Assembly: GCA_013368375.1 (NCBI GenBank)
Contig: JAACJP010000038.1
Span: forward strand, 186,001-250,000
Direction: 5' to 3'
DNA: 64,000 bases
DNA from: Tricholomella constricta
Taxonomy: Eukaryota > Basidiomycota > Agaricomycetes > Agaricales > Lyophyllaceae
Position numbers and translations under genes: made by a program. The notes below the pieces were generated by a model. The model did not search any database. It saw nothing but the letters and a program-made list of their open reading frames with translations, and was not told the DNA's origin. Of this stretch, positions 11,169 through 53,843 are shown piece by piece; position 1 is the first letter of the stretch, and each line of letters opens with the position of its first letter.

Positions 11169-11185
11169 TCACCCCCCCTTTTGAA
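11169..11185 (-). promoter_or_regulatory. polypurine tract of Ty3 element 1
   Basis: On the minus strand AAAAGGGGGGGTGA lies immediately before the LTR start TGTTAGGGG and overlaps the end of the pol gene. The GGGGGGGTGA-TGT junction is the same as in the KH element. Confidence 0.75.
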
Positions 11186-16435: not shown

Positions 16436-16704
16436 CCAACCCGGAATCCGGCCGTGAATTCCGTACAATATACCCGGATGGTTTGGCTACAGGTCCAATG
16501 GCTCTCTGTGGGTGTAGAGAGCCCGCTGCTGCAGTAAACCACGATACAGTGTATTGAGTCCGCTACTTCGTCAATAACCACACACTGTAAAGACGTCCGC
16601 TACAGCACAGAGGACCCGCTGGATGCGTCAACTACGGTACAATGTATAGGCCCGCTAGAGCGTCGGTCACATTACAGTGTAGTGTCTGTATGTGCGACAT
16701 CTGG

Positions 16705-20710: not shown

Positions 20711-20836
20711 CTCGAAACGGGACTGGGCGGGCGATCAGAGCGAGCGCGCGTTGGACGGTCGCGTGTAGCAGACGCGTGTTTCGGCGCGGAAGCTGGTCGG
20801 TCGGCTTCGTCGGGTTTCTAAGAGACACTATTCTGC

Positions 20837-21309
20837 TGTTAGGGCGACCTTTAGAGCAGAGCTTAGTCGTACTGGCAAAGGGGAATCCAAAGTTATATTG
20901 ATGTACAGTAACGAGGTAATTAAGGCTTACCTGGCAAAGGGGAATCCAAAGAGAATAGTGTAAAGGATTCCCAGATGCCAGGGGGCCGGCTATATACAAG
21001 TGGGATACATGAGGGCAGGCTCTCCATAGTGTACTGTACATGTGATAATAACGACATGTGATAACCATGACAGGTGATAATGATGAGCGGGTTCCGGATG
21101 CTGTCTGATGGTAACCGTCGTCGGGATGTCAGGTGATCGGGAATATGAACAGGGAAACGAGGGAAATGACAGGAAGTGAGTAAGGTAAATATATACACCG
21201 ACGCTTGGGTCAGAGCGTGGGGTCGGGATCGCGATCGGTCAGGAGTGAGCGCACGTGTCGGGGAACAGTTGGTGAGCGTCGGAGGGCGCGAACGGGTGTT
21301 CCCCTAACA
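20837..21309 (-). repeat. 5' LTR of Ty3 element 1
   Basis: It is the second 473-bp LTR, nearly identical to 10696-11168, and upstream of gag in the sense direction. Confidence 0.93.
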
Positions 21310-21314
21310 GATGT

Positions 21315-21528
21315 AGTATATAAGCCTGGGTTGGAGATAGAATATCTCCAACCTGAACAATAACAGTATCTTTGGGTTTATACATTGATCGACTCTTAGC
21401 TTGCTCTCTCGTCGCCCTCCTCACGTTTTGCACTGTTGATTGCTCACTTGACTGCATTCAGGACCCTCTTGGCTCGCGCCGGCTTGTAGCTCGTCGCTCG
21501 CCTTCGCCCATCCGGACGTCCTCTAACA
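21315..21528 (+). repeat. 3' LTR of the KH element, second part
   Basis: It continues the LTR interrupted at 10695 and contains the TATATAA box and hairpin. It ends CTAACA, followed by the GGGGC target duplication. Confidence 0.9.
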
Positions 21529-21533
21529 GGGGC

Positions 21534-29301: not shown

Positions 29302-30182
29302 ATCGGGTGTATGGTTGAGGTCGACGTCTAAGATTGGGGTCAACAAAGAAAATAATTTGATCTGGTCAACATGGAAAATCAGACGGACCTCGTAATGAAC
29401 TCGGAGAAAGAGGTCGGCGTGGCCGGCCATTGGCTTGGTTGGACGCCATCGGTGAAGGCAGGAGGGTGGAGGGGCCCTTGGATGACGGACTGTGGCTAGG
29501 CGGGGTGGTGGACGCTGTGGGGGAAGGCGAGGACGGACTCTCAGAGACAGGACGGAGATGGAAGGGCATAGTGGTATGTGAGGGTCTGGGGGGTATAAGT
29601 GGCTCGCAGGGAATGAAGCCAGGGTAATTTATATAAACAGGCGGAGCGGGGAAGACAGATTGATCGCAGAAGTCAGAACAATTTATTTGTAGATCGAAAC
29701 CGGCTCAACTCAAAGTGAACGGGAGTCCGAGCAAACTTGAATGATTTCGATCTCCGTGTACAAGTTGTAGGTCCGTTTCGCCCGAATTTAGTTACGCGTT
29801 GCTTGTAACGGCAACTGTGCGTGAAGAGCCGTGTCAGGGTTAACGTTTATAATCCACGTTGCCATACATATGCTTTTATCTGATCCCTGAAGTGTCAAGG
29901 AAGACCGGCCGACCCCTTGCAGCTGTTCTCAGCAAGAATCACAGCCTTTGACAGAACCGCTCATCGGATGGGAAGACGCGCAGATGACTATTATCTGATT
30001 ATGATTCGATACCACCGTACTTGTCGGTCATGCTACATGGCTATTATGCCTCGATAGGTAACAGATACACTAGGAAAACACGAGGAAAGACAATCGCAAA
30101 ACAGCGGACGTGACCGAGCGCAGAATTTGAAATTCTAGACTCCGATCCCTGCGAAGGACTCGGCGCGTCTCTTGCGTTAGCT
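29302..30182. other. intergenic sequence before the LINE
   Basis: No gene is recognised. The left boundary of the LINE is not marked by a visible duplication, as expected for a 5'-truncated copy. Confidence 0.4.
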
Positions 30183-30185
30183 TAC

Positions 30186-31985
30186 ATGGCTGATTTCCGC
30201 ATCATACTCATGGGGGACCTAAATGCGCGCACCGCCTCCCTAACCGCTTACCCCCTAGATCCACAACGCTCCTCCAAAGATAAAACTGTATCCACCAGAG
30301 GCCGCTGGCTATGCCGTACCCTTGCCGATAATGACCTGGCTATAGTCAACGGAGTTGTCAGATTTGGCAATAACAGCGGCGACTTCACGTCCTTTCAAGG
30401 AACACGACGAACTGTAATAGACTATGCTGCAGTGTCAAATTCCTTATGGCCCTCAGTGACTTCCTTCACTGTCTGCCCCAGAGAAGACGGATACGACCAT
30501 GCAGCGCTCTGCATCAATGTCACACTCGACATTAATACAAGAGCCTTAACGCAAATTCCGTCTAGAAAATCCACCAAACAGGAGCCCCTCCCCACAACGA
30601 CAGAACTCGACAAACTCCTCATCGCAACACTAGAGGCTGGAAAAGATGAGAAAAAGAAAAACAATGCCTTATATGGCCCTACGTTTATCACTACCAACCC
30701 AACTAAGGTCGCAATACATGGTATATGCCTCAACTCAGGAAAAGTGACCGCCACAGCAGGCGTAGGTCTCTATTGGGGACCACGCTCGCCCCGTAATACT
30801 GCACACCGGCTAACAGGCCACGACTTAACCTCGACGCATGCAGAACTTGCCGCCGTTGTGAACGCCCTAATAGTTGCCCCCCCCGACAAGTCATTAGAAA
30901 TAATGACACACTCCGAATATGCCATCAACGCACTTACCCTATACGCACAAGGTAGTGCCGCCCGAGGATGGCGAGTAACAAACGGAAAGCTAATACAACA
31001 AGCTGTCAATGCTATCAAAACACGATTAGCCCCCCTCCACCTTATACACATAAGGAATATCCAACAAAACTCCCACCTCAGGGAAGCCCGTAATCTCGCC
31101 ATAAAAGGAGCATCCAATATACCCGACGCCCCCCTCCCCAACCTCCAGCCTGCCCTACCCGTAACGACGGATATGGACCCTCTCGAAGTGCCGAAGGTCT
31201 CGTCGAACGTCATCAGACCGCCCAATACAATAGACCCTGAAAAAGTTCCCAAACGTACCGTATTCCCAGAAGCCCATCGAGGCCGAAACAAACTTATGGC
31301 GATAAAGGACCTAAACCGCCGACAGATCACTGAAGCCCCGAGCAGCGGAATATTCTGGAAAGTTGTGAAGCGACTTGCCGACCCACAACGAATTCCAATC
31401 TCAGTATCTGCAAGTGACCTAAAATCAGTGTTCGAAGCCAGGTTAAACCCCCCACTCACCTTGCCAAAGACCTTTGACCAACCGCAACATAAAATAAATC
31501 GAATACTAGCATCGCTACTTCCAACCGAGACGCTTGATCGAACCCCCGAAGGGTTCTTCTCCAATGCATGGACAGAAGACGACATGGGCTGGGTGAAAGA
31601 CCACCTGAAAAACCACTCGATAACTAGTGCACCAGGAGAAGACAACGTCAATTACGCAACAGTCTTAACCATACCAAACGAAGACCTTGCCCACCTCTGC
31701 AACGAATGTATTCGCCTGAAAGATGCGCCGTCCACCTGGTTCAAATCAGTGATCGTCGGAGTCCTGAAGAAAGACAAACCAGCCTCAGACCCTGACAGCT
31801 ACCGCGCTATTGCACTTGAAAGTTGCGTGCTCAAAGTCATTATGCTATTAATCCATCAAAGAATAACTGAATGGGCGGAACTCAATCACCACATACCCGA
31901 ATCACAAAATGGATTCAGAGCACACCGACGCACAAACGACAATCCGTTCATTCTAAGATGCGCTTGGAAGTTGGGAGAACGCTAA
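30186..31985 (+). pseudogene. LINE ORF2 part 1: endonuclease, RNase H-like domain, RT start
   Basis: Residues 1-120 are the C-terminal half of an AP-endonuclease-like domain (MGDLNARTAS, FQGTRRTVIDYAAVS, YDHAALCI). Residues 170-310 resemble RNase H (HGICLNSGK, LTGHDLTSTHAELAAV, IMTHSEYAINAL), but the positions normally held by the first two catalytic Asp are His and the last Asp is not found; only the Glu in THAELA remains. Residues 440-599 begin the reverse transcriptase (TSAPGEDNVNY, VIVGVLKKDKPASDPDSYRA, IPESQNGFRAHRRTND). The frame then stops at 31983-31985, near the start of the polymerase active-site half. Confidence 0.8.
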
Positions 31986-32079
31986 GGCGAATAAAGAACC
32001 ACTCTTTGTTGCAGCGGTCGACGCAACAAATGCATTCCCATCAACAGATCACCCGTCCCTCTGGCTTAAACTAACCCGC

Positions 32080-33615
32080 ATGGGAATGGGAGGGCCGCTC
32101 TTTGATTGGCTACGCATGATCTATGGCAAGATGGAATACTATGTACGACACGGCGCCGAAGAATCCCCACTATTCAAAGCCCTTATCGGCCTGCTCACAG
32201 GCGATCCCGCTTCCCCAGTGCTCTGGAATCTCTACATGAGCGACCTCACAATGCCTCCGGACATAGATGATGTTCTCCTGGCAGATATACCAATCTCGTT
32301 AATGGCCCACGCGGATGACATCCTCATCATCTCCCGCACAGCCAACGGCCTAGCGAGGAAACTAATGATACTCGAAAAATGGTGCTCTAGAAATTTCATT
32401 GTCATAAACCTTATCAAAACCGTAATCTTACTTTTTGGAAATATACGACCACCAAACCCAGTGTTCCACCTCGGCGGAACCCAGCTCTCCATCAAGGCTA
32501 CCGAAAAGTATGTGGAAATATCCTTGAGCACAGATACCAACAACCCACTTGAAGGACATTACACGTCAAAAGCAAGCACCGCACGCTATTGTGGACACCG
32601 TATTATGGCAATTGAAGACCTTACTGGGCGTCTCACGCCCAAGGAACTGAGGCAACTCTACATGGCTCGCGTCGACTGCCACCTCACCCATGGATGCGAA
32701 ATCTCGCCAGATGCAGAAGACGTTCACGTAGCCAAACTCGAAGATGTTCAAGTCAGCTTCCTCAGAAGGACACTCAACGTACACAAACGGTCCATGCTCG
32801 TGCCACTATTCACCGAGACTGGAATCATGCCCTTACGCCCACGACGACTCCTGCTAACACTGCGCTTTCTGCAATACCTGGTTAGCCTGAAGGAGACCCG
32901 ATACGCCCACATCGCATTCCGCTGCTCCCTTGAGCTCGCATCGCGAAACAAGAAATCGTGGGTTAACGACCTTCAGAAAGCTCTGCAGAAAATGCCGTTC
33001 CACACCGAACCTCTCGACCCTGCCACCGCCACTGCATTATCAATGACGGTATATGTAAAAAGGTTCGAAAACGAGGTCTCCGTGTGGCTGCAGGGAGTCA
33101 TCGACACGTCAGACAAGCTGTACCTCCTGCGCGATCGAAAAGAACCACGAAAGGACGAGGCACCCGCGCAAATTACTCTACGCCTCCGGCACTATCTGAT
33201 CATGGTGAAGACGAGAGCTCATCGCGAGGCCCTTACCTCGATCATGCTCTCCACCCACATGCTGGCCGTCGAGAAACTGCGCTGGGTCGAACACGGCCAC
33301 CCAAGAGTGAATCGAGCCGAACGACTATGTAGACTATGCCGAACCGAGGTGGAGACTCCGGAGCATGCCCTACTCGACTGCACTGCCAGCCACGAATTGC
33401 TTGCTCTCCGACACGTCTTCTTTGTCGAACTGGAACTCCACCCCACAACACCGCTCCTACATAGCGCCATTGAGCAGATGGACAGCATCAACCTGCTCAA
33501 ACGACTCATCGCTCAGAGACCGACAATCTCACTGGTCGCCAAATATGCCTACCAAGTCCTCAAGTTGTTCTACGACGTCCCGATCTACCGCCCAAATGGT
33601 ACACTTGCCTCATAA
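32080..33615 (+). pseudogene. LINE ORF2 part 2: RT catalytic half and C-terminal zinc motif
   Basis: This is the continuation in another frame. It holds GLLTGDPASPVLWNLYMSDL, the catalytic AHADDILIISRTANGLA (ADD in place of the common YADD context) and thumb sequence. Near the end CRLCRTEVETPEHALLDC gives a C-X2-C-X8-H-X4-C zinc motif typical of the C-terminus of many fungal LINE proteins. About 60 codons between 31985 and 32110 are needed to bridge the two parts, so one or more small indels separate them. Confidence 0.8.
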
Positions 33616-39358: not shown

Positions 39359-40221
39359 TTAAAATTGAAGACCTATTGCTTGTCGGTACGCAAGGAGCTC
39401 TGCTGTGAGTCGAAGTCGCTTCTGTTCTCCTGCGTCCTCTCCAGCATCATCATTTTCTTCTTCTATATGCGGATCCACATCCTCAGTCTCTTCTGCCTGC
39501 ATGTGATCCCCCATGAAATGTGCTCCTGAGATCTTCCCTTCAACGTCAATGATGAGGTTATGGAGTATGATGGCAACTGTAATCCAACGACCAGCTTGAT
39601 AGTGCTCGTTCCGAGAGTTGATGTTAACACGAAGGCCTCGAAGACATTGGAATCTTCCTTTCAATGCACCCATGCAATGCTCTGATCGAACACGCAGATG
39701 GGATACAGTGCGATCGAAGATTGCATTTTCACGTTGAAATGCGGCAGGGCGTTTGTGAACAGGAATCGTTTGATTGGTGAGAGAATATGCAGAATCAACC
39801 CACGCAAACTCTTGCCCTTCAAACAACCACTCGGGGTGCTTTGCAGCAGCGGTGTGTTCAAAGGCAGTTGCATCGTGTGCCGATCCTGTAAGGCCGTGGG
39901 AGTAGTCAACAATTCGAAGGTTTGATGGTACATTCCCAATCTAAATCTTATAAGTAAAAATACACTTTGAAGAATAATGGCACTCACCTGTAAATTGAGC
40001 CCATAATTTCCCTTTCGTGTGTAATATGCATCCCCATCGAGCCCTGGCCGCGAATAAAGCACAATGATCGTCCCGTCATACATGATCCAACCTTCTCTCC
40101 ATGATCCCTGGAATCCAACATGCTCATCTATCCACTGCTTCTCCACCTCTTTCTCTTCAGGTGTCAGAGGACGGACAAAGGTGTCATGGAGCTCCTCGAT
40201 GGCCGTAAAACAGCGATCCGT
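39359..40221 (-). pseudogene. Harbinger DDE transposase, C-terminal part
   Basis: This is the catalytic half of a DDE superfamily endonuclease. Its first exon begins at the Ty3 insertion with DRCFTAIEELHDTFVRPLTP, includes the first Asp in MYDGTIIVLYSRPG, and ends at GNYGLNLQ before an intron (GTGAGT at about 39988, acceptor near 39945). The second exon reads SAHDATAF (second Asp) and RSEHCMGALKGRFQCLRGLR (Glu), then an acidic tail and stop at 39359. The catalytic residues are intact; the gene is broken only by the LTR element. Confidence 0.85.
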
Positions 40222-41296
40222 TGATGAGCACCGTCCCGCGCTATACACAGAACCCGCCCATAATACGGACATCAACCGCGGCGCCACGACGAACACGCTC
40301 CCGAATACGACCAAAGCGCTAAACCGACCGACCGACAATACGACCGACCGACCGACAATACGACCGACCGACCGACAATACGACCAAACGACCGGCGCAC
40401 CGACCAAGAGACAGAGTAACTTGAAACGCCAGTTCTCCTCTCTGGGCGCACGGAGCACGGAACGCCGTATAACCTGTCAACGACCGCGCACGTTTGTATG
40501 CCAAGGTCTCAACCCGGCGACAACCAAACCCGATTTGAAATTACCCTAGGAAACGCCTTGCCCAGCCATCCGTGGAGAGGATCCGGCCGTACCACGGAGT
40601 TCCGTCTCCAAGAGCCACTACCGATCGCAAATCTTGTACCGATCACGGATCCGACCCGACGCCTCTAGCCGATCAAAAAGCCTCTTTGCCGAGCCAAAGG
40701 GCGCCACACTCCCTAAAAAGAGTCGCGCGGTACCAAGCTTGGCGGTGCTTCTCCCAATAAACCAGTAAAACACCTGCCTCGCCGGCTCGCGAGAGGCGAG
40801 TCGGTCGCATAGTATAAAACATACCCATGTAGCACCCATTTCTCCCAGTGAATTACAGCCCGTATTTTCCCTCACAGTCAGAGTTAATAGCTCGAAAACC
40901 GTCGTCTCTGTCGTCTCCGAATCGTTCCCATCGTATAAACTCGTCGTAAACCGTCGCCGCCGCCGTAAAACTCGTAACCGCCGTCTCTGCCAGCTCGTAC
41001 TCGTCGCTCGAACCCGTGAGTTCTCCGTATTAACTTCGTTCGTCTCGTTGTCGCACGACCGACACCGAAAGTCGCGTCACCGACCCGTTCCATCTGGGAA
41101 CGTCGTACCCCATCGCCTTCGTCGTATCACCGTCGGTTCGACTACTTACGAGTCGGATCGCCTTTTACCTACATCAAACAACGCTTACTAACCCTGCACA
41201 CTCGCGTGTTTGGGAACTTTTAACACTTCTCGCCCCCCATAGTTGTTAGTTGTTTTGTTGTTGTGCACAGCACCTACAGGCCTTCTAGCTCTATCA
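40222..41296 (+). repeat. 5' LTR of Ty3 element 2
   Basis: It is the exact counterpart of 52222-53296, offset by 12000. It contains a TATAAAA box at 40813-40819 and, at about 40320-40385, three tandem copies of a 20-bp unit built on ACCGACCGACCGACAATACG. Confidence 0.95.
40813..40819 (+). promoter_or_regulatory. TATA box in the 5' LTR
   Basis: TATAAAA lies 480 bp before the LTR end and would give a long R-U5 leader; the same box is at 52813-52819. Confidence 0.5.
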
Positions 41297-41299
41297 TTC

Positions 41300-41315
41300 T
41301 GGAGCCCACCGCGAG
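41300..41315 (+). promoter_or_regulatory. probable tRNA primer binding site
   Basis: TGGAGCCCACCGCGAG starts three bases after the LTR and its TGG start pairs with the CCA end of a tRNA. The tRNA identity was not established. Confidence 0.55.
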
Positions 41316-41781
41316 GGTTTTAAAAGCCACCGCCGAACACGCAGCCTCATTCCTCTTGTTCATAAGAACCTACGACTCGTCGACCATTCCGCCCGCAACC
41401 CGACAAGAAGCTAAAGCCCGAACCCTCCGTGCCGAAATTCGCGCTGCCTTCGGACAAGCCGACACCGACTCAGAATCGCTCTCCCCGCTCTTCCGCTCCG
41501 TAACTCCACACCGCGCGATCCATAACAACCTCAGCCCGCTTTTCTATAGCCCTTCCCCAACACCACCGTCGCCTACCCCGACCAATCAAACACCGTTCCC
41601 CGAACCAACCGCTCAAACCGACCCAGACTTCGACCCCTTTGCAGCGGAACCTCCTACCACCGATCCAGGAGTTGAATTTAGACTCCCGTCTCTATCGCCC
41701 GCGACTCCAGAAACCTCAGATTCTCCCTCACCATCGTATTCCCCCTCCCCGTCCCCTCTCCAGAAACCAACACCCTCTATC

Positions 41782-42387
41782 ATGGCACAACCACCAATCA
41801 TTGTAAAACCGATGCCCGCACGCGGACAAAGCTCGGCACCGACGTTCGTGCCCGAACGCGCACGCGAACTACGCCGATATTTCTCGGACTTGAATCATCT
41901 CTTCATCGAGTGTAACGTCGTAGACGAACAGGAGAAGAAAATGCACACTACGCGATACACTGATATCGATACCGCGGATCTGTGGGAGCAACTTGACGAG
42001 TTCGCAGTCGGTACCACACACGACGACTGGCGACGAGCGATAATGGCGCTTTACCCGGGCGCAAGCGAAGAAAGAAAGTATTCAATGGCCGACCTCGACC
42101 ACCTGATCAGAGAACGACACCGACTTGGGATCCAGTCGAATAGCGATCTCGGGGAATATTACCGACAGTTCCTTTCGGTTACCCAATTCCTTGTCAGCAA
42201 AAACCGACTGTCGATAAACGAACGCGACCGCCAATTCCGTCGCGCGTTCCAGTCCGATCTATGGTCAAAAATCCATCGTAGACTCGAGATCTTAAATCCG
42301 AACCACCACCCCGATGACCCCTACTCCACCGAAACCATTCGTGCGGCGGCCGAACATATTCTCCACGGGACGAGCGCCGTCCGATGA
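41782..42387 (+). CDS. Ty3 element 2 gag
   Basis: From the first ATG (MAQPPIIVKPMPARGQSSAP) the frame encodes 201 residues of a capsid-type domain: RARELRRYFSDLNHLFIECN, YTDIDTADLWEQLDEFAVG, LIRERHRLGIQSNSDLGEYY and SINERDRQFRRAFQSDLWSK. The same frame is open without an ATG back through the primer binding site into the LTR, and that stretch (QEAKARTLRAEIRAAFGQAD) also looks coding, so a longer protein from a non-AUG start or a spliced leader is possible. It ends at a TGA after which the frame continues without change into the zinc knuckle and protease. Confidence 0.8.
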   Translation: MAQPPIIVKPMPARGQSSAPTFVPERARELRRYFSDLNHLFIECNVVDEQEKKMHTTRYTDIDTADLWEQLDEFAVGTTHDDWRRAIMALYPGASEERKYSMADLDHLIRERHRLGIQSNSDLGEYYRQFLSVTQFLVSKNRLSINERDRQFRRAFQSDLWSKIHRRLEILNPNHHPDDPYSTETIRAAAEHILHGTSAVR

Positions 42388-44088
42388 CAGGAAGAGCCTG
42401 TGCACGCGCCACCGCAGATGGCGATCGCACCACGCGGGTCTTTATCAGACACGACCAAGTCGCCAACCCCAAACCAACCCCTCAAATGGGAAGAACTTCA
42501 CGAGAAGATTCACCTTCTAGAGCAGCACATCCATCGCTTGGAACACGCCCAAGGAGGCGACGGAGGCCGACCGAACCGAGTACCTCACGACAACTGTCAC
42601 TTTTGTGGCGGCGAAGGGCACTACATCCCTAACTGTCCCATAAGTCAACAATACATGGCCGACGGGCTCTGCCGCCGACGAACCGAAGACAACAAGATAG
42701 GACTGCCAACCGGAGCGGTTATACCGGCTGGGACTCCGGGCAGATACATAAAAGACAAGCTCGACGAGTGGCACAGGCGCAACCCCGGCCAACACGCAAG
42801 GGCGCAACTGTCAGCAAACGCGAACCCGACCGAGAGCATGATGCTAGAAATACTCCAGTTTAACGACGTCACCGACCACGACTTGAAAATCGAAGATCGC
42901 ATGATCGTGTTAGAACGAGAACTCAACACCCTGCGCGCAAGGAAAGAGGTATTCGACGGCGTAGAACTTATTAGCCGCGCACCTCAAAAGCGACCCGTCA
43001 CGATCGAAACCGTTCAAGACGCCGACCAACCAAGGATCGCACCGATCAACAAGTCAGCGCCCGCATCGCAACCCGTCTCGGACGCGACGAAAGGCCAAGC
43101 CAAGGCTCCCCCGCCACCGTCCAACATACCGCTGATCCCCAGTACCAAGACCGACGCCACAGTCGATGCACGCGACCAGACTCCAGTACACCCTTTCTCT
43201 AACATTCCTGAGAACCGATACGTCCCCCCTACCACGCGAAACTTAGCCGCCACGGAGAAAGCGAAAGCCGACAGTGCGTACCGCACACAGGCGCCCATTA
43301 CAGATCCAACCAAATCAACGACTTTATTCGAACGCGCACTCGACGCCACCATACCGGTCACAGTTCGGGAACTCTGCGGGGTAGCACCAGAAGTTCGCGG
43401 AAAGTTTAGGGAAGCTAATACACCGAAGCGCATCGTCGCCAGCAACCTCGCAACTGTGTACCAAGAAGTACCCACGTCGGCGTTTATCGAGGAACTCGAC
43501 GCACTCCCCTGCGAGTCCAACAGCGACAACGCGACGCCACCGCCCGGAGCGCTAGTCACCGGCGACATCTACGACACATACTACCAGACCCTGCTACCTG
43601 GCGAACACCCAGACCGGTTGATCGTCGCCATGGAATCGCACGCACTCAGATCAATCATGATAATGGTCGACGCAAGGGAACAGATAGAAAGCATCGTCGA
43701 TAGCGGATGTCAAATCATCGCGATGTCGGAAGAAGTCTGCCATGGACTGGGAGTTAAATACGACCCGACTATCGTTCTCCAGATGCAATCAGCGAACGGA
43801 ACAACCGACCCGTCGCTCGGTCTAGCAAGAAACGTACCCTGTACGATAGGCGACGTCACGCTCTACCTCCAGATGCACGTCATTCGCAACCCCGCATACG
43901 ATATACTCCTCGGCCGTCCGTTCGACGTACTTACTTGTTCTAACGTAAAGACAAGATCCGCCGACGATACGATAATAACCATCACCGACCCAAACACTCG
44001 AGAGGTCATCGCGATACCGACCTTCGCACGCGGACAACGTCGCCGCCCCAAGACCGACGTAAATTTTCGTATACTCTCGAGGAAATAA
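42388..44088 (+). CDS. Ty3 element 2 nucleocapsid zinc knuckle and protease
   Basis: The frame is the same as gag and separated from it by a single TGA (context TGA CAG). It encodes a coiled-coil-like segment (WEELHEKIHLLEQHIHRLEH), a zinc knuckle C-X2-C-X4-H-X4-C in CHFCGGEGHYIPNC, a long linker, and an aspartic protease (IESIVDSGCQIIAMSEEVCH; later DILLGRPFDVLTC). No ATG is well placed at its start, so stop-codon readthrough or an unseen splice probably links it to gag. It terminates at TAA 44086-44088, 19 nt after a -1 slippery heptamer. Confidence 0.85.
   Translation, partial: QEEPVHAPPQMAIAPRGSLSDTTKSPTPNQPLKWEELHEKIHLLEQHIHRLEHAQGGDGGRPNRVPHDNCHFCGGEGHYIPNCPISQQYMADGLCRRRTEDNKIGLPTGAVIPAGTPGRYIKDKLDEWHRRNPGQHARAQLSANANPTESMMLEILQFNDVTDHDLKIEDRMIVLERELNTLRARKEVFDGVELISRAPQKRPVTIETVQDADQPRIAPINKSAPASQPVSDATKGQAKAPPPPSNIPLIPSTKTDATVDARDQTPVHPFSNIPENRYVPPTTRNLAATEKAKADSAYRTQAPITDPTKSTTLFERALDATIPVTVRELCGVAPEVRGKFREANTPKRIVASNLATVYQEVPTSAFIEELDALPCESNSDNATPPPGALVTGDIYDTYYQTLLPGEHPDRLIVAMESHALRSIMIMVDAREQIESIVDSGCQIIAMSEEVCHGLGVKYDPTIVLQMQSANGTTDPSLGLARNVPCTIGDVTLYLQMHVIRNPAYDILLGRPFDVLTCSNVKTRSADDTIITITDPNTREVIAIPTFARGQRRRPKTDVNFRILSRK
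44061..44067 (+). promoter_or_regulatory. -1 ribosomal frameshift heptamer (pro to pol)
   Basis: The protease frame reads GTA AAT TTT; the heptamer A AAT TTT fits X XXY YYZ. A -1 slip enters the pol frame at TCG TAT ACT CTC and avoids the stop at 44086. It is the only such heptamer I noticed at this junction. Confidence 0.75.
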
Positions 44089-47000
44089 GTCGAGATCACG
44101 GCGATCTTGCACTCCTCCTCGAGTACGACCCACTAAGCTATACCCCGACTGTCCTTTCTTTCTGCGAACTACCGACCGAATTTAATAGCGACGCCACCTA
44201 CGACGCGCAACTAGCCTCACTCTACGTCGCGGCATCCGAACTAACCACACCAGCAATCGCCGACCAATCCGTTAATACCAGCTCTACCCCTCTTGAACGA
44301 ACGACCCTCTGCACTATTTTACCGAACAACGAGCGCCATAGTGGGCGCCACACCCAAACCCTGACCAACGCCGCCACCGACACCTTCGTTGTAAAAATCA
44401 AAGGCGTACAAACCAAAAAGAAGTACAAACCAGTGGCACAGAAAGTACGATCGATCGTAGCAAGCTGTCCCGACCACTTCCGCATCGAGCGCAAAATATT
44501 GGGCGACCCTCTCGCCGACATGCCGACTCTGCTCCCCAACCCGCCACCTTTCCAACCCACCGGCCGCTACACTCTAGAGCGAAAAGAAGACTTAGACCGT
44601 GAACACCCAGACTTCCTAACGCCCTCCGAACGCGCAATTATGCACGACCTCATGTGTAAGCAGAATCTCGCTTTCGCATGGGACGATTCCGAACGCGGTA
44701 GTTTTCGGTCGGATTTCTTTCCCCCTATCGATATCCCGGTCGTCGCACACACACCCTGGATCGAACGTAATATCCCCATACCGCCTGGTATCTACGACGA
44801 AGTTTGCGACATTATCAAAACTAAACTCGCCGCCGGCGTTTACGAACCGTCCAACTCCAGCTACCGATCGCGTTGGTTTTGCACTCTAAAGAAAAATGGC
44901 AAGTTCCGCCTCGTCCACAGCCTCGAACCGCTCAACCGAGTAACCATCCGACACTCGGGTGTCACTCCGATACCAGACCATGTCGCTGAACAATTCGCCG
45001 GTCGCATTTGTGGCGCAATGTTAGACCTGTTTGTCGGCTACGACGAACGGCTAATCGCACCATCGTCGCGCGACCTTACCACTTTCCAAACACCTTTCGG
45101 CGCGTTACGCCTAGTCACCTTACCTATGGGCTGGACCAACTCCGTCCCAATCTTCCACGACGACGTCACTCACATCCTGCAACCGGAGATCCCGGACTAT
45201 ACACTGCCTTATATCGATGACGCTGCTATAAAGGGACCAGCAACTTGGTACCCCGACCCGGACACAGGATTGCCGAAAACACACCCCGACAATGCTGACG
45301 TGCGATTCGCGATCTGGGAGTTCTTCAACGACGTCAACCGAATCCTCCAGCGCATGAAATACTGCGGCGGCACCTTCTCCGGCAAGAAGCTGATTTTATG
45401 CGCACCACAATTTAAAGTCCTCGGACACGTCTGCACGCCCAATGGTCGCATACCCGACGCAGACCGACTTGCTTTGCTGCGCAATTGGAAGTCGTGCGCC
45501 ACCCTATCGGAGTTACGCGCGTTCTTAGGAACGGTCGGAGTACTAAGGATATTCGTCAAAAACTTTGCTCATCGCGCACACCACCTCGTGAAACTAACCC
45601 GCAAGGATGCCGTCTTCGAGTTCGGCCCCGACCAGATCGCAGCGCAGCGTGACATCGTTGAGGCGATCGCAGAAGCAAAACCCCTCGTACCTATCGACTA
45701 CGCCTCGGACGACCCCGTCATCCTGGCCGTCGACACTTCCCACATAGCAGTCGGATTCTACCTCTGTCAAGCCGACCCCATCGATCGGAAACGACGCAGA
45801 TACAATCGGTTCGGTTCCATTACACTGAACGACCGCGAATCACGATTCTCTCAACCAAAACTCGAATTTTACGGCCTATTTCGGGCGCTTGGCGCTTTAC
45901 GACTGTACGTTATAGGCGTCCGCAACCTAGTCGTCGAAGTCGACGCGCGCTACATTAAAGGCATGCTCTCCAACCCCGATATTCAACCATCAGCTTCCAT
46001 AAACAGGTGGATCGTGTCCGTCCTAATGTTCCACTTCGAGCTCGTCCACGTTAAAGGCACGTTCCACGGACCCGACGGATTATCTCGTCGCCCTCGTCAA
46101 CCCGACGACCCGACCGACAACTATGACGCAGAAGAAGCCGACTTTGAGGATTGGGTCGATCGGATGCAAGGCCTCATGCACATTATCCAACCACTGCCGC
46201 AACCGCCGTCGCCCTTGCATGTTCGACAGATCTTCGCCATGGCACAGATCTCAAGTAAGGAGGAGATGGTGGCCGTATACACCGACGTGGTGCCACCAGA
46301 CCCAACGACTCACGAACTCGCAACCGACTCCCCACGACAACCCAGAATCCGTACCGACGATGATACAGGAATAACCGACCCAAATACGAATTTGACCGAC
46401 ATGTCATACGACGACGTGCCCAGAACCGACGCCGCTAAAGCCCAAGACCAACGTATAGATGCTGTTAGACAATGGTTGGCCGACCTCGAACGACCAGAAG
46501 GCATGTCCGACGATCAGTACGCCACTTTCATTCGATACGCCACCGGGTTCTTCCTAGACGGAACACGACTCTGGAGGAGAGACAGCCAAGGCGCACATAA
46601 GCTAGTCGCCCGCCCCAGCGCGCGATTAGAGATACTGCGATCGGTCCACGACAACCTCGGACACAAGCGCTTCTACGCGACACGCGCGACCCTACTCGAA
46701 CGCTTTTGGTGGCCTAATGTTCGGGCCGACGTCGTGTGGTTTGTACAGACATGTCACATATGCCAGATCCAACAAACGACCAAGGTCCTGATTCCCCCGG
46801 TCGTTGCGACACCTGCGCCACTGTTCGCGAAAATGTACATCGACACTATGCACCTACCGGCATCAAATGGTTTTAAATACATTGTCCAAGGCCGTTGCTC
46901 CTTAATCCACTTTCCCGAATGGCGCGCGCTTCGAAAGGAAAACAGTCGCACACTCGGTGACTGGATGTACGAAGACATCATCTGCCGGTGGGGCGGACTG

Positions 47001-47831
47001 CGCGAAATCGTAACCGACAACGGTCCAGCCTTCATCAAAGCCGCCGAACACCTCACAAAGAAATACCACATACACAATATTCGAATCTCGGGCTATAACT
47101 CTAGAGCCAACGGGCTCGTCGAGCGATCCCATTTCGACGTACGACAATCCCTTTTCAAAGCCGCCGACGGAAACGAAAGCAAATGGTCGCAATCCGCGTA
47201 TTCAGTCTTCTGGGCTGAACGCGTCACGATCCGCAAGCGAATGGGATGCTCTCCCTATTACGCCGCGACAGGAACCCAACCCCTTCTCCCACTCGATATC
47301 GTCGAGGCCACGTACCTACAACCACCGCCCGACTCTATCCTGTCCTCCACCGACCTCTTGACGCGACGCGCGATCGCCTTACAAAAACGAACGACCGACC
47401 TAGAGCGACTACATTCAGACGTATACGCGGCGCGACGACAAGCGGCGATTCGCTTTGAACTTAAACACGCCAGAACCTTGCGCGACTATAACTTTCAACG
47501 CGGAGACCTCATCCTCATGCGCAACACGAAAATCGAGAAGTCGCTCAACCGCAAAATGCGATCTAGATACCTAGGACCGCTCGTCGTGATCTCACGCAAC
47601 CGCGGGGGCGCCTACATCCTCTGTGAACTGGACGGCACCGTCTTACACCGGCCTGTAGCAGCGTTCAGACTCGCTCCCTACTTCGCGCGAAACAACATCC
47701 TCCTACCCGACAGCGCTCTGGACATAGACACCAAGCGACTCAGAGAACTGGAAGCAACAACGATCACCGACGACGAAGACCGACCCGAAGTCGTAGGCGA
47801 CGACTCCGAATCGGAAGACGAGCAAAACTAG
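44068..47831 (+). CDS. Ty3 element 2 pol: RT, RNase H, integrase
   Basis: The frame is open from the slippery site to 47831, about 1250 codons, with no ATG near the beginning of the domain, so it is a frameshift product. It shows a reverse transcriptase (YRSRWFCTLKKNGKFRLVHS, then LPYIDDAAIKGP with the catalytic YIDD), RNase H (ILAVDTSHIAVGFYL), and an integrase with zinc-binding HDNLGHKRFYATRA and CHICQIQQ, DTMHLPASNG, VTDNGPAFIKAAEH and ANGLVERSHFDVRQ for the D, D and E. A GPY/F-like module (RSRYLGPLVVISRNRGGAYI) ends it; there is no chromodomain. All key residues are present. Confidence 0.9.
46251..46266 (+). promoter_or_regulatory. internal polypurine-tract copy within pol
   Basis: TCAAGTAAGGAGGAGA here is identical to the 16 bases that abut the 3' LTR. 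It lies between the RNase H and integrase coding parts, where it is translated in the frame SSKEEM. Confidence 0.6.
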
Positions 47832-48266
47832 CTGCTCAACCTCCGACTACCCGTATACCCCTTTTTTCTAATGATATTTCAACATCTATCCCTCTCTGGT
47901 TTCTACTTAACGTCCCACGACCCAACCGTTCGCGAAGCCCAGCACCCCGAACGACAGTTTTTCCTTTCGTTCTTTTAACCCCCACTCAATTTTCATGATC
48001 ACACACTTAATACCGGACTCCGCAGAAGAACCGCACAACGTATATTACATTTTTTCTAGCCCATTTTACGGGCACCGACAACTCCAAGTACAAAACAAAA
48101 AAAAAAAAAAAAAAAAAAACGCGACGCCTCTAGCGGAGGAACGACGCGGCCACAACACCAAGACAAACCGAACCGACAACCACCGACACCATGCGACGCC
48201 TCTAGCGGAGGAACGACGCGACCACGACCCCAAGACAAACGACGCGACGCCGCCCACCGCCTACCT
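47832..48266. other. junction between pol and the antisense cargo
   Basis: This is a non-coding convergent 3' region. It contains a run of 23 A (48097-48119) and two direct copies of a 28-bp hairpin-bearing unit starting GCGACGCCTCTAGCGGAGGA (48121 and 48193). These may end transcription from both sides. The A-run on the sense strand after pol could also be a relic of a polyadenylated template joined to the cargo. Confidence 0.5.
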
Positions 48267-50374
48267 CTACTCCCCTTCCCCCAAGTCACCTTCCACCTCC
48301 TCTTCGTCGCCCTCTTCGCCAGTCTCCACCGCTTCTTCCTCCGACTCCGCATTGCTGTCGCTCTCCGAGAGTTCGACGCCTGCCGCTTGCATCAACTGGG
48401 ACCGTCGCCTGCGGAGCGCAGTGATCGCGCTCGCCGTACCGGCGAACTGTTCACGCACCCGTACGAGACTCCAGCGAGCGATCTCCTGACGCGACTCCCA
48501 CACCTGTGACTCCTGGATCAACGACCGCAGCAGTGCGTGGCGCGACGACAGGGCTCGGTCAACATCTACCAGGGGGAGGGAGGCGACACGCGACAAGTCG
48601 GTGGCGTACCCTAAGCCGTCCAAATCGCGGTTGCGGGGAAGACTAGTGCCGCGAGGTACCCGGCCACCGTGTACAGACCAGGTACTCATGCCAGCGGACT
48701 CCTCGACGGCGTACCCAGCAGACTGATACGCTCCTGCGGTTGGTCCGAGATCGTCGTCGCTGGGCGCAGTGAGGTCGCGCGCTCGACGACGCGCGACGGA
48801 CGGCGACACGACCTCTACGTCTTCCTCTGAGTCCTCCACGACGGACTTGGAGGCGACGCGACGGCGACTCCGGGGACGCGAATTTTTGACCACCTCCGCG
48901 TCGGGCTTGTTCCTCACAGTTTCACACCGTTTGGAGAAAATCTTACACCGCGCGCAGATTCCGCCTTCAGGCTTCTGGAAACAGTCGACGTTGGCGTCTG
49001 CGCAGCGGTCGCACTACGACGATATCAGAATATGACCGGCCCGACGAAGCACACGATGCCTTACCGCCTCATCACGAACGAAGTGGTTTGGGTGGGCGAC
49101 TTTAAATTCCTCCAGTCGCTCCAGCCACTTGAAATCCGCAGCGGCCTTTCTGGCCGCGGTAGTCTGCTCGCGCTTCGTGGCCGCCGCTGTTCCCTTCTTC
49201 CCAGACGCTTTCCCGACCTTGGCCGCCGCGGCCCCCTTCTTTCCAGGCGCCTTCTCCGCCTTGACCACCACTTCTATAACCTCAGTCGCAGACCCCTCAC
49301 CTTCGTCGTCGGCAGCGCGCTTCCGCTTGCGGCTGGATGACGCCGGTGCCGTGTCGATGGGGACGATGGGCGGTCCACCTACGGAAGGTGTCAGAGGGAG
49401 CCCGTCGATAGGACTAAAGATGATGCCTGGACCAAGTGCGAACTTACCCGGGGCACCCGCTTTCGGACGACCACCTCCGACCGACATATGAGGCAGCGTG
49501 AGGGGACGATACGCGGGGTCGTGCACGCTCGACACCTCGACCCTTGCCTTGGCCTTCGCCTTGATCGGCGCAAGGGCGGCGGGCGGTACGGGGGGTTCCT
49601 GATCGAGCGCGACGACTCCGGACACCTGAGGAGACCGCGCCAAAAGGGGGTCACGCAGCGGCTCCATGTCTTCCCGCCCCATCCGCTCCGCCATCGCCAA
49701 GACCCTCGCTGCCTCCGATTCCTGCACGAAACCCGCTACGGTTTGGACGTCCCCACCGGTCATGCCGGCGCCGCTACGCCCTGGTGTAACCGACGCCAGA
49801 CGAGGAGAGGCGTCGTCGATCGTCGCGGACACTGGGGGGGCACTATCGGTTCCCACAGGAGCCTCCACTGCAGGGGCAGTTGGGCTCGGAGTAGCCTCGG
49901 TACCAGTCGTGGCCAGGCCCAGATCAATGGGTGGCGCCACCACAGTCGTTGCCGCGGACGGGTTCTCGGGCGCCACCGACTGCGACGCACGCATGTTGGC
50001 CGCCGCACCTAGGCGTACACGGCGCTCACGACGACGGCGCGCGTTTTCGCTCTGAGAAAAGCGGCGTGAGCCGACCAACAGCGGTCCAGTAGACCGCGAC
50101 GCACCTCAGGTTCCAGACTACCGAATAGCGCTTTCCACTCGGTATCCCCTCCTACGACGGCCCAGACGGCCCGCAACGCAGGCTCCTCTTCAGACCATGC
50201 CCATCGCGGTCCCCCGCCCTCCTGGGCACGTAGCGCTGTGACTCCCTGTAGCAGCCCCTCGAGGATCGCGAGGCGTGCTCTACGCGGCGCATCGTCAGGC
50301 AGCGCCCGCCAGTCGTCCCAGTCACCCTGCAGGTCCTCAAGGATGAGCGCGTAGTTGGGCGGAAGGCTATCCAT
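48267..50374 (-). CDS. antisense cargo gene 1: Zn2Cys6-like zinc-cluster protein
   Basis: Three exons join in phase 0: 50105-50374 (ATG at 50374), 49065-50051 and 48267-49013, with introns 50052-50104 (GTGCGT...CAG) and 49014-49064 (GTAAGG...TAG), giving about 667 residues. Exon 1 is a tryptophan-rich helical domain (DLQGDWDDWRALPDDAPRRA, WSEEEPALRAVWAVVGGD). Exon 2 is an Ala/Pro/Lys-rich linker ending in KWLERLEEFKVAHPNHFVRD. Exon 3 opens with CDRCADANVDC...CARCKIFSKRC, exactly C-X2-C-X6-C-X8-C-X2-C-X6-C, the spacing of fungal binuclear zinc clusters that bind DNA, followed by a helical region (VDRALSSRHALLRSLIQESQ). Without splicing a TAG would precede the zinc cluster. The DNA-binding role is inferred. 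Confidence 0.8.
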
Positions 50375-50534
50375 GACCACGGACAGGGTGAGAGAGTGAA
50401 AAAGAGGGAGCCGAGAAAGACAGAGGGTCCTTGAGAAACTTGACGCGAGGTCAAATTCTGTTGCACCGCCACCGCCATCTCACGCCACACACGCGTCAGT
50501 TCTAGAATTTTCTCGACCGGTCTCCGGACCGACT

Positions 50535-50566
50535 GAGGACAGTCGGCATTTCAAGTAAGGAGGAGG
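50535..50566 (+). promoter_or_regulatory. second internal polypurine-tract copy
   Basis: The sequence leading to TCAAGTAAGGAGGAG (50551-50565) repeats the whole end of the internal region before the 3' LTR (about 52185-52220, with CGACTGAGGACAGTCGG upstream). It marks the boundary between the two cargo modules. Confidence 0.65.
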
Positions 50567-50759
50567 CATGAACTACAGACCGAACGACAACCGACACCAC
50601 CGACCGACACAACGAACCGACCTGCGCCACTTAAAACACGAAAAAGTTCGAATTATAAAGAACGACCCAATTTTAGGGCCCGCACGACAAAACGGGTATA
50701 TACGGAATATGCGACCGACAACGAGCGCAACCCGACCACACAACACGCCAAACCCGGAG

Positions 50760-52059
50760 TCAAGAGGACGAACCCTCGCCACCATTGTCGTGTACGCCAC
50801 CGACGACACCGCTTCCACTACCGCTGCCCCCACTTCTCGAATTATCCATCGTAGACGCACCAACTAACTCTGCGCGCCGGGCCTGAAGCAAGTCAAGGGC
50901 CGACGACGTAGACACGACCTGCTCGTAAAGCTGACGGGCCGACGAACGCATGATCTCTTGGCGCGATTCAAGGACTTGGATTTCCTGGACCAAAGTACGC
51001 AAGAAAACGGTGCGCGCCGATAGCGCCCGATCTACATCCGCGAGACCGAACCGCGAAATAACCGACAACGGTTGGGTAAAGCCCAAGCCGCGTAAATCTT
51101 CGTTATGGAGGAAGTCCTCAGGGCGAAACACCGGACCCTGATAAAGAAGACCCGCACCCAGGTCTACCGAACCCGCAGAACGAGTCACGACAAGACGCTG
51201 GGCGACCCTCGCCAGATCGGGCGAACGAACCTCGGCGACCAGCGGAGGTGGTGTGCACGCGTCGCAAGAACGTCCCTCTACCGAACACGACACAAACTGG
51301 TGCGGAGCCTGCAGAAACGACCCTACCTCGTTCGTCTCGCATCGCCTGGACTGAATCTCGCAAACCGCGCAAGCGTCAATCCCGATACGCTGAACACAGT
51401 CCAACGCGTAGCTCACGCAACGATCGCACTAGCCAACAAATGAGCGGACGAACAAGGCCGCACGAGAACCGACGACTTACCGATTCGCTACGGGTATAAT
51501 GCTCAGGGTACTCTGCCTTAAATTCCTCAAGACGCTCCAGCCACAAATCGTGTCGCCTCCTCTGCGCCGCCAATACCGACCCCCCAGAGATCTCGACTAC
51601 AGACTCTTCCTCGTCCCCGTCTCCGACAGAGGAAGCACACGTACGCTCCCGAACGACAGACTCTGCCTCTTCTCCAGCAGAGGCGGTGCGAGCGCGCTCC
51701 CGAACGACCGGCTCTCGGTGGGGGTAATCAGACTACCAACTAGCGCGTTAGTACCAGAAAGCGACCAAATAACCAAGGAGCCGACGCACACTCGGTTGTA
51801 GACCCGCGAATCGCTCGGACCATTCAGGGTCGGGCTCGATCGTAGACCATACGTTGAGCAATGCATCTTCCTCGTCGCGCCACATCCAACGCCAAGGGCT
51901 AGCTGCTGGCGACCTAAGCACTTCGACGCTGTTTAACAAGTATTGCAGCACACGAGTGCGCTCGTAACGAGGCGAGTCGTCCGACAGCGATTGCCATTCG
52001 TCCCAGTCTCGTGCCAAGAAGCGGAGAGTGCGCTGGAGATCGACAGGAGGTCTCGACAT
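50760..52059 (-). CDS. antisense cargo gene 2: Zn2Cys6-like zinc-cluster protein
   Basis: It is a paralogue of cargo gene 1. The exons are 51790-52059 (ATG at 52059; 270 nt, the same length as in gene 1), 51481-51732 and 50760-51428, with introns 51733-51789 (GTGCGT donor, TACTAAC branch site) and 51429-51480 (GTAAGT...TAG), about 396 residues. Exon 1 has the same tryptophan pattern (LARDWDEWQSLSDDSPRYER, WRDEEDALLNVWSTIEPDPE). Exon 2 is a shorter acidic linker ending LWLERLEEFKAEYPEHYTRS. Exon 3 opens with CDRCVSYALDC...CAVCEIQSRRC, again C-X2-C-X6-C-X8-C-X2-C-X6-C, then a helical region (VDRALSARTVFLRTLVQEIQ). Shared intron places across diverged proteins argue for selection. Confidence 0.8.
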
Positions 52060-52205
52060 AACGATGGGTAAACCAGACGAGAACCTGGATATATATATAT
52101 GTCGCCAGCGCGTCGGCACCGCCACTTCCTCCTATCCCAGTCCCCCCTTTCCAAGACATACGCCCCCTGACCGATGCACGGGACCGACTGAGGACAGTCG
52201 GTATT

Positions 52206-52221
52206 TCAAGTAAGGAGGAGA
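52206..52221 (+). promoter_or_regulatory. 3' polypurine tract of Ty3 element 2
   Basis: TCAAGTAAGGAGGAGA ends exactly at the base before the LTR start TGATGAGC. Confidence 0.8.
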
Positions 52222-53296
52222 TGATGAGCACCGTCCCGCGCTATACACAGAACCCGCCCATAATACGGACATCAACCGCGGCGCCACGACGAACACGCTC
52301 CCGAATACGACCAAAGCGCTAAACCGACCGACCGACAATACGACCGACCGACCGACAATACGACCGACCGACCGACAATACGACCAAACGACCGGCGCAC
52401 CGACCAAGAGACAGAGTAACTTGAAACGCCAGTTCTCCTCTCTGGGCGCACGGAGCACGGAACGCCGTATAACCTGTCAACGACCGCGCACGTTTGTATG
52501 CCAAGGTCTCAACCCGGCGACAACCAAACCCGATTTGAAATTACCCTAGGAAACGCCTTGCCCAGCCATCCGTGGAGAGGATCCGGCCGTACCACGGAGT
52601 TCCGTCTCCAAGAGCCACTACCGATCGCAAATCTTGTACCGATCACGGATCCGACCCGACGCCTCTAGCCGATCAAAAAGCCTCTTTGCCGAGCCAAAGG
52701 GCGCCACACTCCCTAAAAAGAGTCGCGCGGTACCAAGCTTGGCGGTGCTTCTCCCAATAAACCAGTAAAACACCTGCCTCGCCGGCTCGCGAGAGGCGAG
52801 TCGGTCGCATAGTATAAAACATACCCATGTAGCACCCATTTCTCCCAGTGAATTACAGCCCGTATTTTCCCTCACAGTCAGAGTTAATAGCTCGAAAACC
52901 GTCGTCTCTGTCGTCTCCGAATCGTTCCCATCGTATAAACTCGTCGTAAACCGTCGCCGCCGCCGTAAAACTCGTAACCGCCGTCTCTGCCAGCTCGTAC
53001 TCGTCGCTCGAACCCGTGAGTTCTCCGTATTAACTTCGTTCGTCTCGTTGTCGCACGACCGACACCGAAAGTCGCGTCACCGACCCGTTCCATCTGGGAA
53101 CGTCGTACCCCATCGCCTTCGTCGTATCACCGTCGGTTCGACTACTTACGAGTCGGATCGCCTTTTACCTACATCAAACAACGCTTACTAACCCTGCACA
53201 CTCGCGTGTTTGGGAACTTTTAACACTTCTCGCCCCCCATAGTTGTTAGTTGTTTTGTTGTTGTGCACAGCACCTACAGGCCTTCTAGCTCTATCA
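52222..53296 (+). repeat. 3' LTR of Ty3 element 2
   Basis: It is a 1075-bp direct repeat of 40222-41296, with no difference noticed. Confidence 0.95.
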
Positions 53297-53843
53297 CCGT
53301 GAATAATTCAACAGATCCCTCAGATATCCCAGCCTCACGAGCAACATCTGCGAGAGAGGCAGCGTTTCCATATCTCCCCATACGAAAGAGTGCAACAGCA
53401 AGCTGGTAGTCAACAGGGGTTTGGGGAACGTTCGAATTGTTGGTGAAGACAGGAGAGTCCTTTATCAGCTCGAGGATAACCTCAAACACATGAGGAGACA
53501 CTCGAAGCATCTGGATGAACATATCATGATGTGCTGGATTTTTCGCATACTCCCAAGCAAGATGGAGGGTGCCAGATTTAGGAACAGAGGTGCGGGGATT
53601 TAGATAGCGTGTGTTTTTGATGGTTTGGAACATGTCAATGTCAACCTGAAGTCGTACAAGGAGTTCATCAACAGAAAGCTCGTCGGGTGGGGAAATTGAA
53701 TCTCGCAAGGTGAGATGAAGAAGATATGTACGCAGAACCCTATCGTGTAGGTTCTTGTGCGGCATTGCAAGGAGGAGGACGAACATCTGATCAGTGATCT
53801 CTCGACGATGACTTATCTCGCGTGTGATGCTGACAAATGTCAC
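53297..53843 (-). pseudogene. Harbinger transposase, N-terminal part
   Basis: The frame runs from about 53843 (likely start at MPHKNLHDRVLRTYLLHLTL, 53763) to the LTR insertion. It holds the N-terminal region typical of fungal Harbinger transposases with a helix-turn-helix near the end (VDYQLAVALFRMGRYGNAAS, LADVAREAGISEGSVELFT). It continues in frame at 40221 once the LTR element and one CCGT copy are removed. Confidence 0.85.

Follow-up and report, generated by a model that had tools for sequence, protein, structure and literature searches.

Antisense accessory genes are known in long terminal repeat (LTR) retrotransposons of plants, and their role is called unknown in the available portions of two accounts (PMC7264820, PMC11963269). 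The two genes described here, called A and B, lie on the minus strand of a Ty3-type LTR retrotransposon, between pol and the 3' LTR, in a window of 64,000 nucleotides (nt) from the basidiomycete Tricholomella constricta (the whole stretch of DNA analyzed, G000:C38:186001-250000 of a 44.09-Mb, 118-contig assembly); the window's copy of the element is referred to as W, and other fetched loci carry L-numbers. In position, orientation and presence in most copies, A and B resemble the antisense genes of Grande and Retand as far as the same portions describe them (PMC7264820, PMC11963269). The antisense gene of Grande is further reported there to have its own upstream promoter, comparable to the promoter-like module found here, and DNA binding is suspected for the TRP28 antisense protein of Retand, as it is for the present proteins. 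The element differs from those of plants in having two tandem paralogues with two introns each, a zinc-cluster-like domain, a coiled coil, a promoter-like module shared by both genes and exchange of one gene between copies. The TRP28 family (PF04195) matched none of the A or B exons, with exon 3 searched at an expect value (E) of 0.1, 30 exon-3 members at E 10, and exons 1 and 2 at E 10.

A fungal LTR element with an antisense gene is likewise described in the Boty-like retrotransposons of Botrytis cinerea, where the gene is named brtn (PMC7264820, PMC8365987, PMC4227169, PMC5987419). As far as the available parts of these sources go, the host is an ascomycete, one antisense gene is named, and a CHROMO domain is described in gag-pol (PMC4227169), unlike the present pol; BRTN is likened here by description, without sequence comparison. 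A functional likeness is seen in HBZ of human T-cell leukemia virus type 1 (HTLV-1), an antisense-encoded regulator with a dimerizing domain of DNA-binding type which, in the portions available, is described as acting on LTR transcription (PMC3185765, PMC6950816). HBZ differs in having a basic leucine zipper (bZIP) rather than a zinc cluster, in a transcript that begins in the 3' LTR and in belonging to a human retrovirus, and no relation is claimed. The HBZ transcript is spliced. A literature search judged by titles and the starts of abstracts produced no recognizable description of paired antisense zinc-cluster genes in an element of a basidiomycete.

The reading favored here, to which we give a probability of about 0.5, is that A and B constitute a two-gene antisense regulatory cassette, the proteins of which probably bind an inverted repeat as dimers and set the antisense/sense balance of the element. 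That two tandem spliced minus-strand genes of shared architecture lie between pol and the 3' LTR was proposed in a first-pass annotation of the stretch, and the frames are open at exactly the splice sites it gave. Gene A begins at the ATG at 50374-50372 and consists of exon 1 (50105..50374, a helical domain assigned from splicing and alignment), intron 1 (50052..50104, 53 nt, GTGCGT..CAG), exon 2 (49065..50051), intron 2 (49014..49064, 51 nt, GTAAGG..TAG) and exon 3 (48267..49013), which holds a zinc-cluster-like motif (48924-49013) and a coiled coil; when spliced, its 270 + 987 + 747 nt encode 667 amino acids (aa). Gene B consists of exon 1 (51790..52059), intron 1 (51733..51789, 57 nt, GTGCGT..TAG, with TACTAAC), exon 2 (51481..51732), intron 2 (51429..51480, 52 nt, GTAAGT..TAG) and exon 3 (50760..51428), with a zinc-cluster-like motif (51339-51428) and a coiled-coil part, giving 270 + 252 + 669 nt and 396 aa. 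Both genes have a first exon of 270 nt and two phase-0 introns, all exons are multiples of three, and no internal stop is present in either spliced frame. A and B are paralogues, with 39% identity between their exon 1 products and 35% between their exon 3 products, and the tandem pair may have arisen through duplication of a unit made up of gene, repeat and polypurine tract (PPT).

The annotation had also counted on this layout being conserved, and the splice sites are indeed kept in other copies, where exon limits were set by homology to the window's genes. Intron 1 of B is GT..AG in 16/16 modelled copies, with the donor GTGCGT in 12, GTACGT in 2 and GTAAGT in 2, the acceptor TAG in 16/16 and TACTAAC in 11/16, and intron 2 of B is GTAAGT..TAG in 15/15. 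Copies of gene A of type 1, the type found in W, have GT..AG at both introns in 10/10; the intron 1 donor is GTGCGT in 6/10 and GTATGT in 4/10, and that of intron 2 is GTAAGT or GTAAGG in 10/10. The length of B intron 2 varies between 51, 52, 53 and 57 nt, in steps that are not multiples of three, and the spliced frame remains open, as is expected of real introns. Splicing of A intron 2 is less strictly implied, as it is 51 nt long in all ten copies and contains no stop in some of them; a 592-aa open frame runs through the intron at C41, and L010 is also stop-free. In the public T. constricta gene model D9615_010527 the exon junction falls at the identical place, before CDRC, and the last 225 residues of the model are those of an L029-type A exon 3, letter for letter. 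A search for intron-less retrocopies by the exon 2/3 junction pattern E-S/A-C-D-R-C had 0 genome matches; a single wording of the junction was covered, and the result is neutral as evidence on splicing.

Substitutions among the copies show purifying selection on A and B at the protein level. The ratio of nonsynonymous to synonymous divergence (dN/dS), which the annotation had offered as a check, has a median of 0.22 for type-1 A (36/45 pairs with dS > 0.03) and 0.27 for B (94/105 pairs above the same dS), both well below 1, and of 0.06 for pol (58/66 pairs, again with dS > 0.03), the pairs not being independent. Differences in A exon 3 are distributed over positions 1/2/3 of the antisense codons as 895/744/2905 (35/45 pairs, dS > 0.03), and both A and B show a clear excess at third positions of the antisense frame. 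The proteins, and not the RNA alone, are thus maintained. The highest A value (0.96) belongs to the pair W-L025, the frame of L025 being broken; the highest pol value is 0.43, and the pair W-L021, in which the pol frame breaks at codon 419 of the piece compared, reaches 0.28. Rows omitted from the calculation were, for B, L009 (same as W), L011, L014, L022-L024, L026, L029 and exon 3 of L010, and, for A, L009, L011, L015, L016, L022-L024, L026 and copies of other A types. Control by antisense RNA has been discussed for plant elements in the part of one source available (PMC7264820), however the protein-level selection and the conserved splice sites make it very improbable that antisense RNA alone matters here, through double-stranded RNA control, or that the frames are fortuitous.

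The cargo is also widespread, as a survey of related Ty3 elements proposed in the annotation would have it: at least 57/67 of those in the same genome carry it at the expected distance and strand. Related elements are the 67 whose reverse transcriptase (RT) is 92-100% identical to that of the window across all or nearly all of a 260-aa query; at least 46 have exon-3 matches to both A and B and 11 to A alone, and, among the matches listed, 0/67 have B alone and 10/67 have neither gene at the set distance. Most copies hence hold an antisense frame at the same place, between pol and the 3' LTR. Two of the cargo-negative elements (L022, L024) lose similarity within pol and regain it some 6.4 kb later, as with inserts, and three others (C22, C24, C33) have a match at a different distance. 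Outgroup elements, with RT 44-48% identical, had cargo at the expected place in 0/14 cases among the matches listed, a search that deeply diverged cargo might escape; one outgroup cargo match at 11 kb fits another element (RT C9:1044371), and three outgroup stretches that were fetched gave no cargo match. Cargo matches that lie more than 12 kb from any listed full RT match amount to 24/91 for A and 24/77 for B (places entered by hand), several of them at contig starts or beside partial RT. An origin of the cargo from a host gene was considered, and none of the places was shown to be a host gene. Protein comparisons with spliced B gave no relative among 7,998 candidates scored, and those with the conserved helix of B gave none among 55, all candidates sharing exact words with the query; the exon-3 profile found one protein among 7,996 candidates scored (shared exact words again needed), and this protein is annotated in Tricholomella constricta.

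Upstream of each gene, a short box and an inverted repeat form what the compared regions show to be a shared promoter-like module beside the PPT. The inverted repeat, CCGACTG-N4-CAGTCGG, starts 125 nt before the ATG of B and 155 nt before that of A; the internal copy, upstream of A (50529..50546), and the terminal copy, upstream of B (52184..52201), both read CCGACTG-AGGA-CAGTCGG. The polypurine tract CAAGTAAGGAGGAG lies 5 nt inward of the repeat and hence in front of A and B both, as an internal copy identified by motif comparison (50552..50565, plus strand) and as the 3' PPT read from the sequence, which abuts the LTR (52207..52221, plus strand). The GCACCGCCAC box is found at 50463..50472 upstream of A and at 52116..52125 upstream of B, and TATATATATA is read from the sequence upstream of B at 52090..52099. 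Among the copies, a GCACYGCCAC box precedes 17/17 A and 17/17 B genes, 55-89 nt ahead of the assigned start, which in A of L015 is not an ATG. The distance from box to repeat is 67-70 nt in 17/17 B regions and 66-67 nt in 15/17 A regions, the exceptions being L029, at 48 nt, and L031, with no repeat within 260 nt and one 421 nt from the start. Within 260 nt upstream, the exact repeat is present before 17/17 B and 11/17 A genes, and an imperfect one before five further A genes (L012-L014, L025, L029). The A and B sequences differ in the stretch from repeat to box, and TATATA occurs 31-35 nt ahead of the start in 16/17 B regions. The window holds 2 matches to the repeat, where 0.03 would be expected if one mismatch is tolerated; the genome holds 109, against 0 for the reversed control. 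L029 retains an exact terminal repeat even though its B-type gene shows no cluster in the frames read, L052 has an imperfect one, and none was seen in the L051 stretch. The annotation's suggestion that A and B control the LTR, targeting or silencing may find its best support in this module.

The repeat and the repeated polypurine motif could instead be replication signals, unrelated to the proteins: a hairpin by the PPT, and an internal and a central PPT. The two are paired before both genes, the repeat can form an RNA hairpin, and a copy of the polypurine motif, CAAGTAAGGAGGAGATGG, recognized by motif comparison within pol (46252..46269, plus strand), where it is a possible central PPT, recurs in 14/21 stretches covering the place. 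A near-fixed distance between box and repeat before both genes would be unneeded for such a role, however, and the arm changes in L012-L014, L025 and the internal copy of L029, as assessed by eye, break pairs and never restore one, which leaves replication signals a possible but doubtful account. A second alternative is that A and B are host-directed effectors which alter host gene expression, the inverted repeat serving mainly their own expression. Fungal regulators are laid out as a zinc cluster with a coiled coil, and the combination of the two in the model would suit this role; nevertheless, 47 of the 50 repeat sites listed (of 109) precede cargo genes, no more than 3 kb upstream of exon 3 of a listed A or B, and a further site, C11:900997, fits an internal site, the one in front of a listed B being 1.7 kb away. 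Such an effector role is considered quite improbable.

Exon 3 of both genes begins with C-X2-C-X6-C-X8-C-X2-C-X6-C, as the annotation had read it, and this spacing agrees with the Zn2Cys6 pattern C-X2-C-X6-C-X5-12-C-X2-C-X6-8-C. All six cysteines are present in 51/53 exon-3 matches from fetched loci, counted where a match runs from residue 1 to residue 60 or beyond, without a motif filter although with the start at residue 1 demanded; the two exceptions are single Cys to Tyr changes in gene B of L014 and L017. The invariance of the cysteines in alignments A1 and A3 is circular, as rows were chosen by the motif; R3 and Q13 are also invariant in 18 motif-chosen clusters. The predicted structure of A exon 3 (mean predicted local distance difference test score, pLDDT, of 63) places two short helices (2-6 and 21-25) in the cluster and a long one at 148-210, with block-mean pLDDT of 82-96 over 141-210. 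Exon 1 is predicted to be a compact five-helix domain (pLDDT 92.7 for the B model) with no clear fold match and no Pfam match, exon 2 of A contains basic clusters resembling nuclear localization signals (NLS), and no Pfam family was found above cut-off in A or B.

In comparing these proteins to the fungal Zn2Cys6 regulators Gal4, Ppr1 and Pho7, the cysteine spacing is shared, as are, in prediction, two short helices and a coiled coil after the cluster, the last being the usual layout of the family. Unlike the fungal family (PF00172), A and B remain below the Pfam cut-off, and basic residues occur in the second half of most clusters aligned. PF00172 is the family most frequently matched by exon-3 members (5/30 at E 10), and the cluster profile, searched against the PDB at E up to 10, retrieved only three sequences, two of Pho7 and one of Ppr1 (E 0.89, 0.99 and 7.4), the best stretches spanning 12 residues; with Pho7 the order of the halves is swapped, the first half of A/B aligning with the second of Pho7. 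The Zn2Cys6 fold proposed in the annotation is therefore partly supported, its spacing being matched and two short helices with a following coiled coil being predicted, and is not borne out by the Pfam score or by the B-type genes of three relatives, both given below. The exon-3 domain is zinc-cluster-like on present sequence comparisons and membership of PF00172 is not established; the wording "zinc-cluster-like" or Zn2Cys6-like is used because the Pfam model was matched solely below its cut-off.

Like the module, the exchange of gene A goes beyond what the annotation had seen. In a comparison of ten copies, with pol taken as 1,570 nt of RT-RNase H, W and L027 are 97.6% identical in pol and just 45% in A exon 3. 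W carries the A type of L012 (A 84%, pol 95.4%) although it is nearest in pol to L027, and L021, near L012 in pol (98.3%), yet has the A type of L027 (A 85%, pol 94.0%); the histories of pol and A thus conflict among the copies compared. Within type 1, synonymous divergence between W and L012 reaches 0.61 for A, 0.25 for B and 0.20 for pol. In L015, L016, L021 and L028, nucleotide similarity to the window is lost from the pol stop (47829-47830) onward, and in L027 from 47863; in all five it returns at 50397-50442, just upstream of the A start; in the L030 and L031 stretches, which are without pol, it resumes at 50393 and 50518, and in no case is the end of similarity necessarily the place of exchange. 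L013 and L021 are mostly 97-100% identical over the first 2.4 kb, 85-95% to the pol end (integrase part), at an unrelated level across A and 74-97% thereafter, a profile that makes an exchange point inside integrase possible. When sorted by five chosen reference types, A exon 3 matches number 12, 9, 7, 5 and 2. In these sequences, gene A behaves as a cassette.

A gene that changes beside a near-constant RT suggests that A carries the changing specificity. We can propose only tentatively that A is an exchangeable specificity cassette, in which constant replication genes would trade deeply diverged zinc-cluster regulators, copies would fall into regulatory classes, and gene B would be the constant partner or, where cluster-less, a dominant-negative one; such classes may be likened to the immunity regions of temperate phages. 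The same exchange and deep divergence next to a near-identical RT-RNase H could also reflect counter-defence, with A and B opposing host silencing (RNA interference, methylation or heterochromatin) and A diversifying in an arms race. This is judged rather unlikely: the promoter-like module and the six-cysteine cluster recur from one A type to another, favoring a DNA target, and, as neither A nor B has a Pfam family above cut-off, nothing points to a known suppressor.

Selection across many copies and the cassette-like exchange of one gene point to regulators made by the element itself. In the two-gene regulatory cassette favored here, each gene would be transcribed from its own antisense promoter and each antisense transcript spliced twice, giving proteins in which a helical N-terminal domain encoded by exon 1 would be followed by a variable linker from exon 2, then by a zinc-cluster-like domain and a coiled coil. 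The proteins would enter the nucleus, with the help of basic clusters in A, dimerize through the coiled coil as homo- or heterodimers and bind CCGACTG-N4-CAGTCGG before both genes. They could thereby control their own genes together with the element's PPT-LTR end, in autoregulation or copy control, with repression and activation alike conceivable. Gene B would be the more constant partner and gene A the one swapped as a cassette, perhaps through template switches that reverse transcriptase makes inside pol and close to the internal inverted-repeat/PPT segment. Transcription, splicing, DNA binding, the target, the direction of regulation and the mechanism of exchange are all steps that we infer.

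A number of observations weigh against such a regulatory cassette. Pairwise identities are correlated (Spearman 0.50 for pol-A, 0.65 for pol-B and 0.75 for A-B), the modules being not fully unlinked, and, as the copies are related, counts across them are not independent either. The PF00172 gathering score of 21 bits was not reached, the best being 15.7 bits (L041, E 0.017); single members gave a lower best E with unrelated families (HrpB7 at 0.0048, below cut-off, and DUF4726 at 0.0076), and a fold search of exon 3 returned nothing significant. No cluster is present in the frames read for the B-type genes of L029, L051 and L052, which retain the coiled-coil part, L029 also the exon-1 domain; gene A of L029 retains its cluster. 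Exact repeat copies at C12:949793 and C15:7749, away from listed cargo (50 of 109 sites listed), are unexplained. The repeat, folding as an RNA hairpin 5 nt from the PPT, may serve replication instead, and CCGAC is frequent throughout the element, at 10.3 per kb in gag-pol and 15.8 in the LTR, so that its density in the LTR proves little.

The host element itself is bounded by LTRs of 1,075 bp at 40222..41296 (5' LTR, plus strand, TGATGAGC...CTATCA) and 52222..53296 (3' LTR, plus strand), which are 100% identical to one another, have TG..CA ends and are flanked on either side by CCGT (40218-40221, 53297-53300), a short target duplication. The gag and CCHC-protease frames (41297..44088, plus strand) form a single reading frame with an aspartyl protease (PF13650) above cut-off in its CCHC-protease part. 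This frame is split by an in-frame TGA (42385-42387) that interrupts gag of the window copy despite the identical LTRs; in L034 the frame is uninterrupted, and open copies therefore exist. Pol follows at 43944..47831 (plus strand), and the order is that of Ty3-type elements, protease - RT - RNase H - integrase, with protease, RT_RNaseH and Integrase_H2C2 each above the Pfam cut-off, in sequence. PF00078 (RVT_1) and PF00665 (rve) were not reported for the element at E 0.1, and its RT was assigned from position and by eye (YIDD). Between the pol stop and the gene A stop, two 48-nt repeats (48121-48168 and 48193-48240) are 94% identical and contain CCTC-N5-GAGG inverted repeats, with an A-run immediately 5' of the first.

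No Chromo match was found in the element's pol at E 0.1, and a neighboring chromovirus in the window has one, which would fit a role of A and B as DNA- or chromatin-binding adaptors for integration targeting or nuclear tethering, replacing the absent chromodomain. The NLS-like clusters in A exon 2 and the diversity of A, as exchange would shift the target, agree with this role; a promoter-like module with a shared inverted repeat before both genes would be unnecessary for it, however, and targeting is regarded as unlikely.

The window holds several other elements. The chromodomain-bearing Ty3 element occupies 10693-21309 on the minus strand, with LTRs at 10693-11168 and 20834-21309 that are 99.6% identical; its integrase and RT parts are about 4 kb apart, separated by tandem repeats (unit of 163 nt) in two inverted arrays, 12446-14474 and 15129-16684. 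At 8841-9307, a TG..CA repeat (about 8850-9305) is intact, and its second copy, 10445-10698 and 21310-21530, is split by the chromovirus, which therefore seems to lie inside a small LTR element's 3' LTR; this small element has a 355-aa frame (9341-10408) without a Pfam match. A Mutator-like element (MULE) transposase with a FAR1 domain (23795-25720, minus strand) adjoins a 323-aa frame without a Pfam match in the region 23795-26946, and a retroelement at 30114-33615, probably non-LTR, has two overlapping frames that match RNase H and RT.

A motif of DNA-binding type, a short candidate target before both genes and natural exchanges of A provide ready comparisons, so that whether the proteins act on the repeat becomes a simple binding and reporter question. 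If the regulatory reading is true, this family would offer a case in which copies of a single element, in the same genome, swap a regulatory gene as a module.

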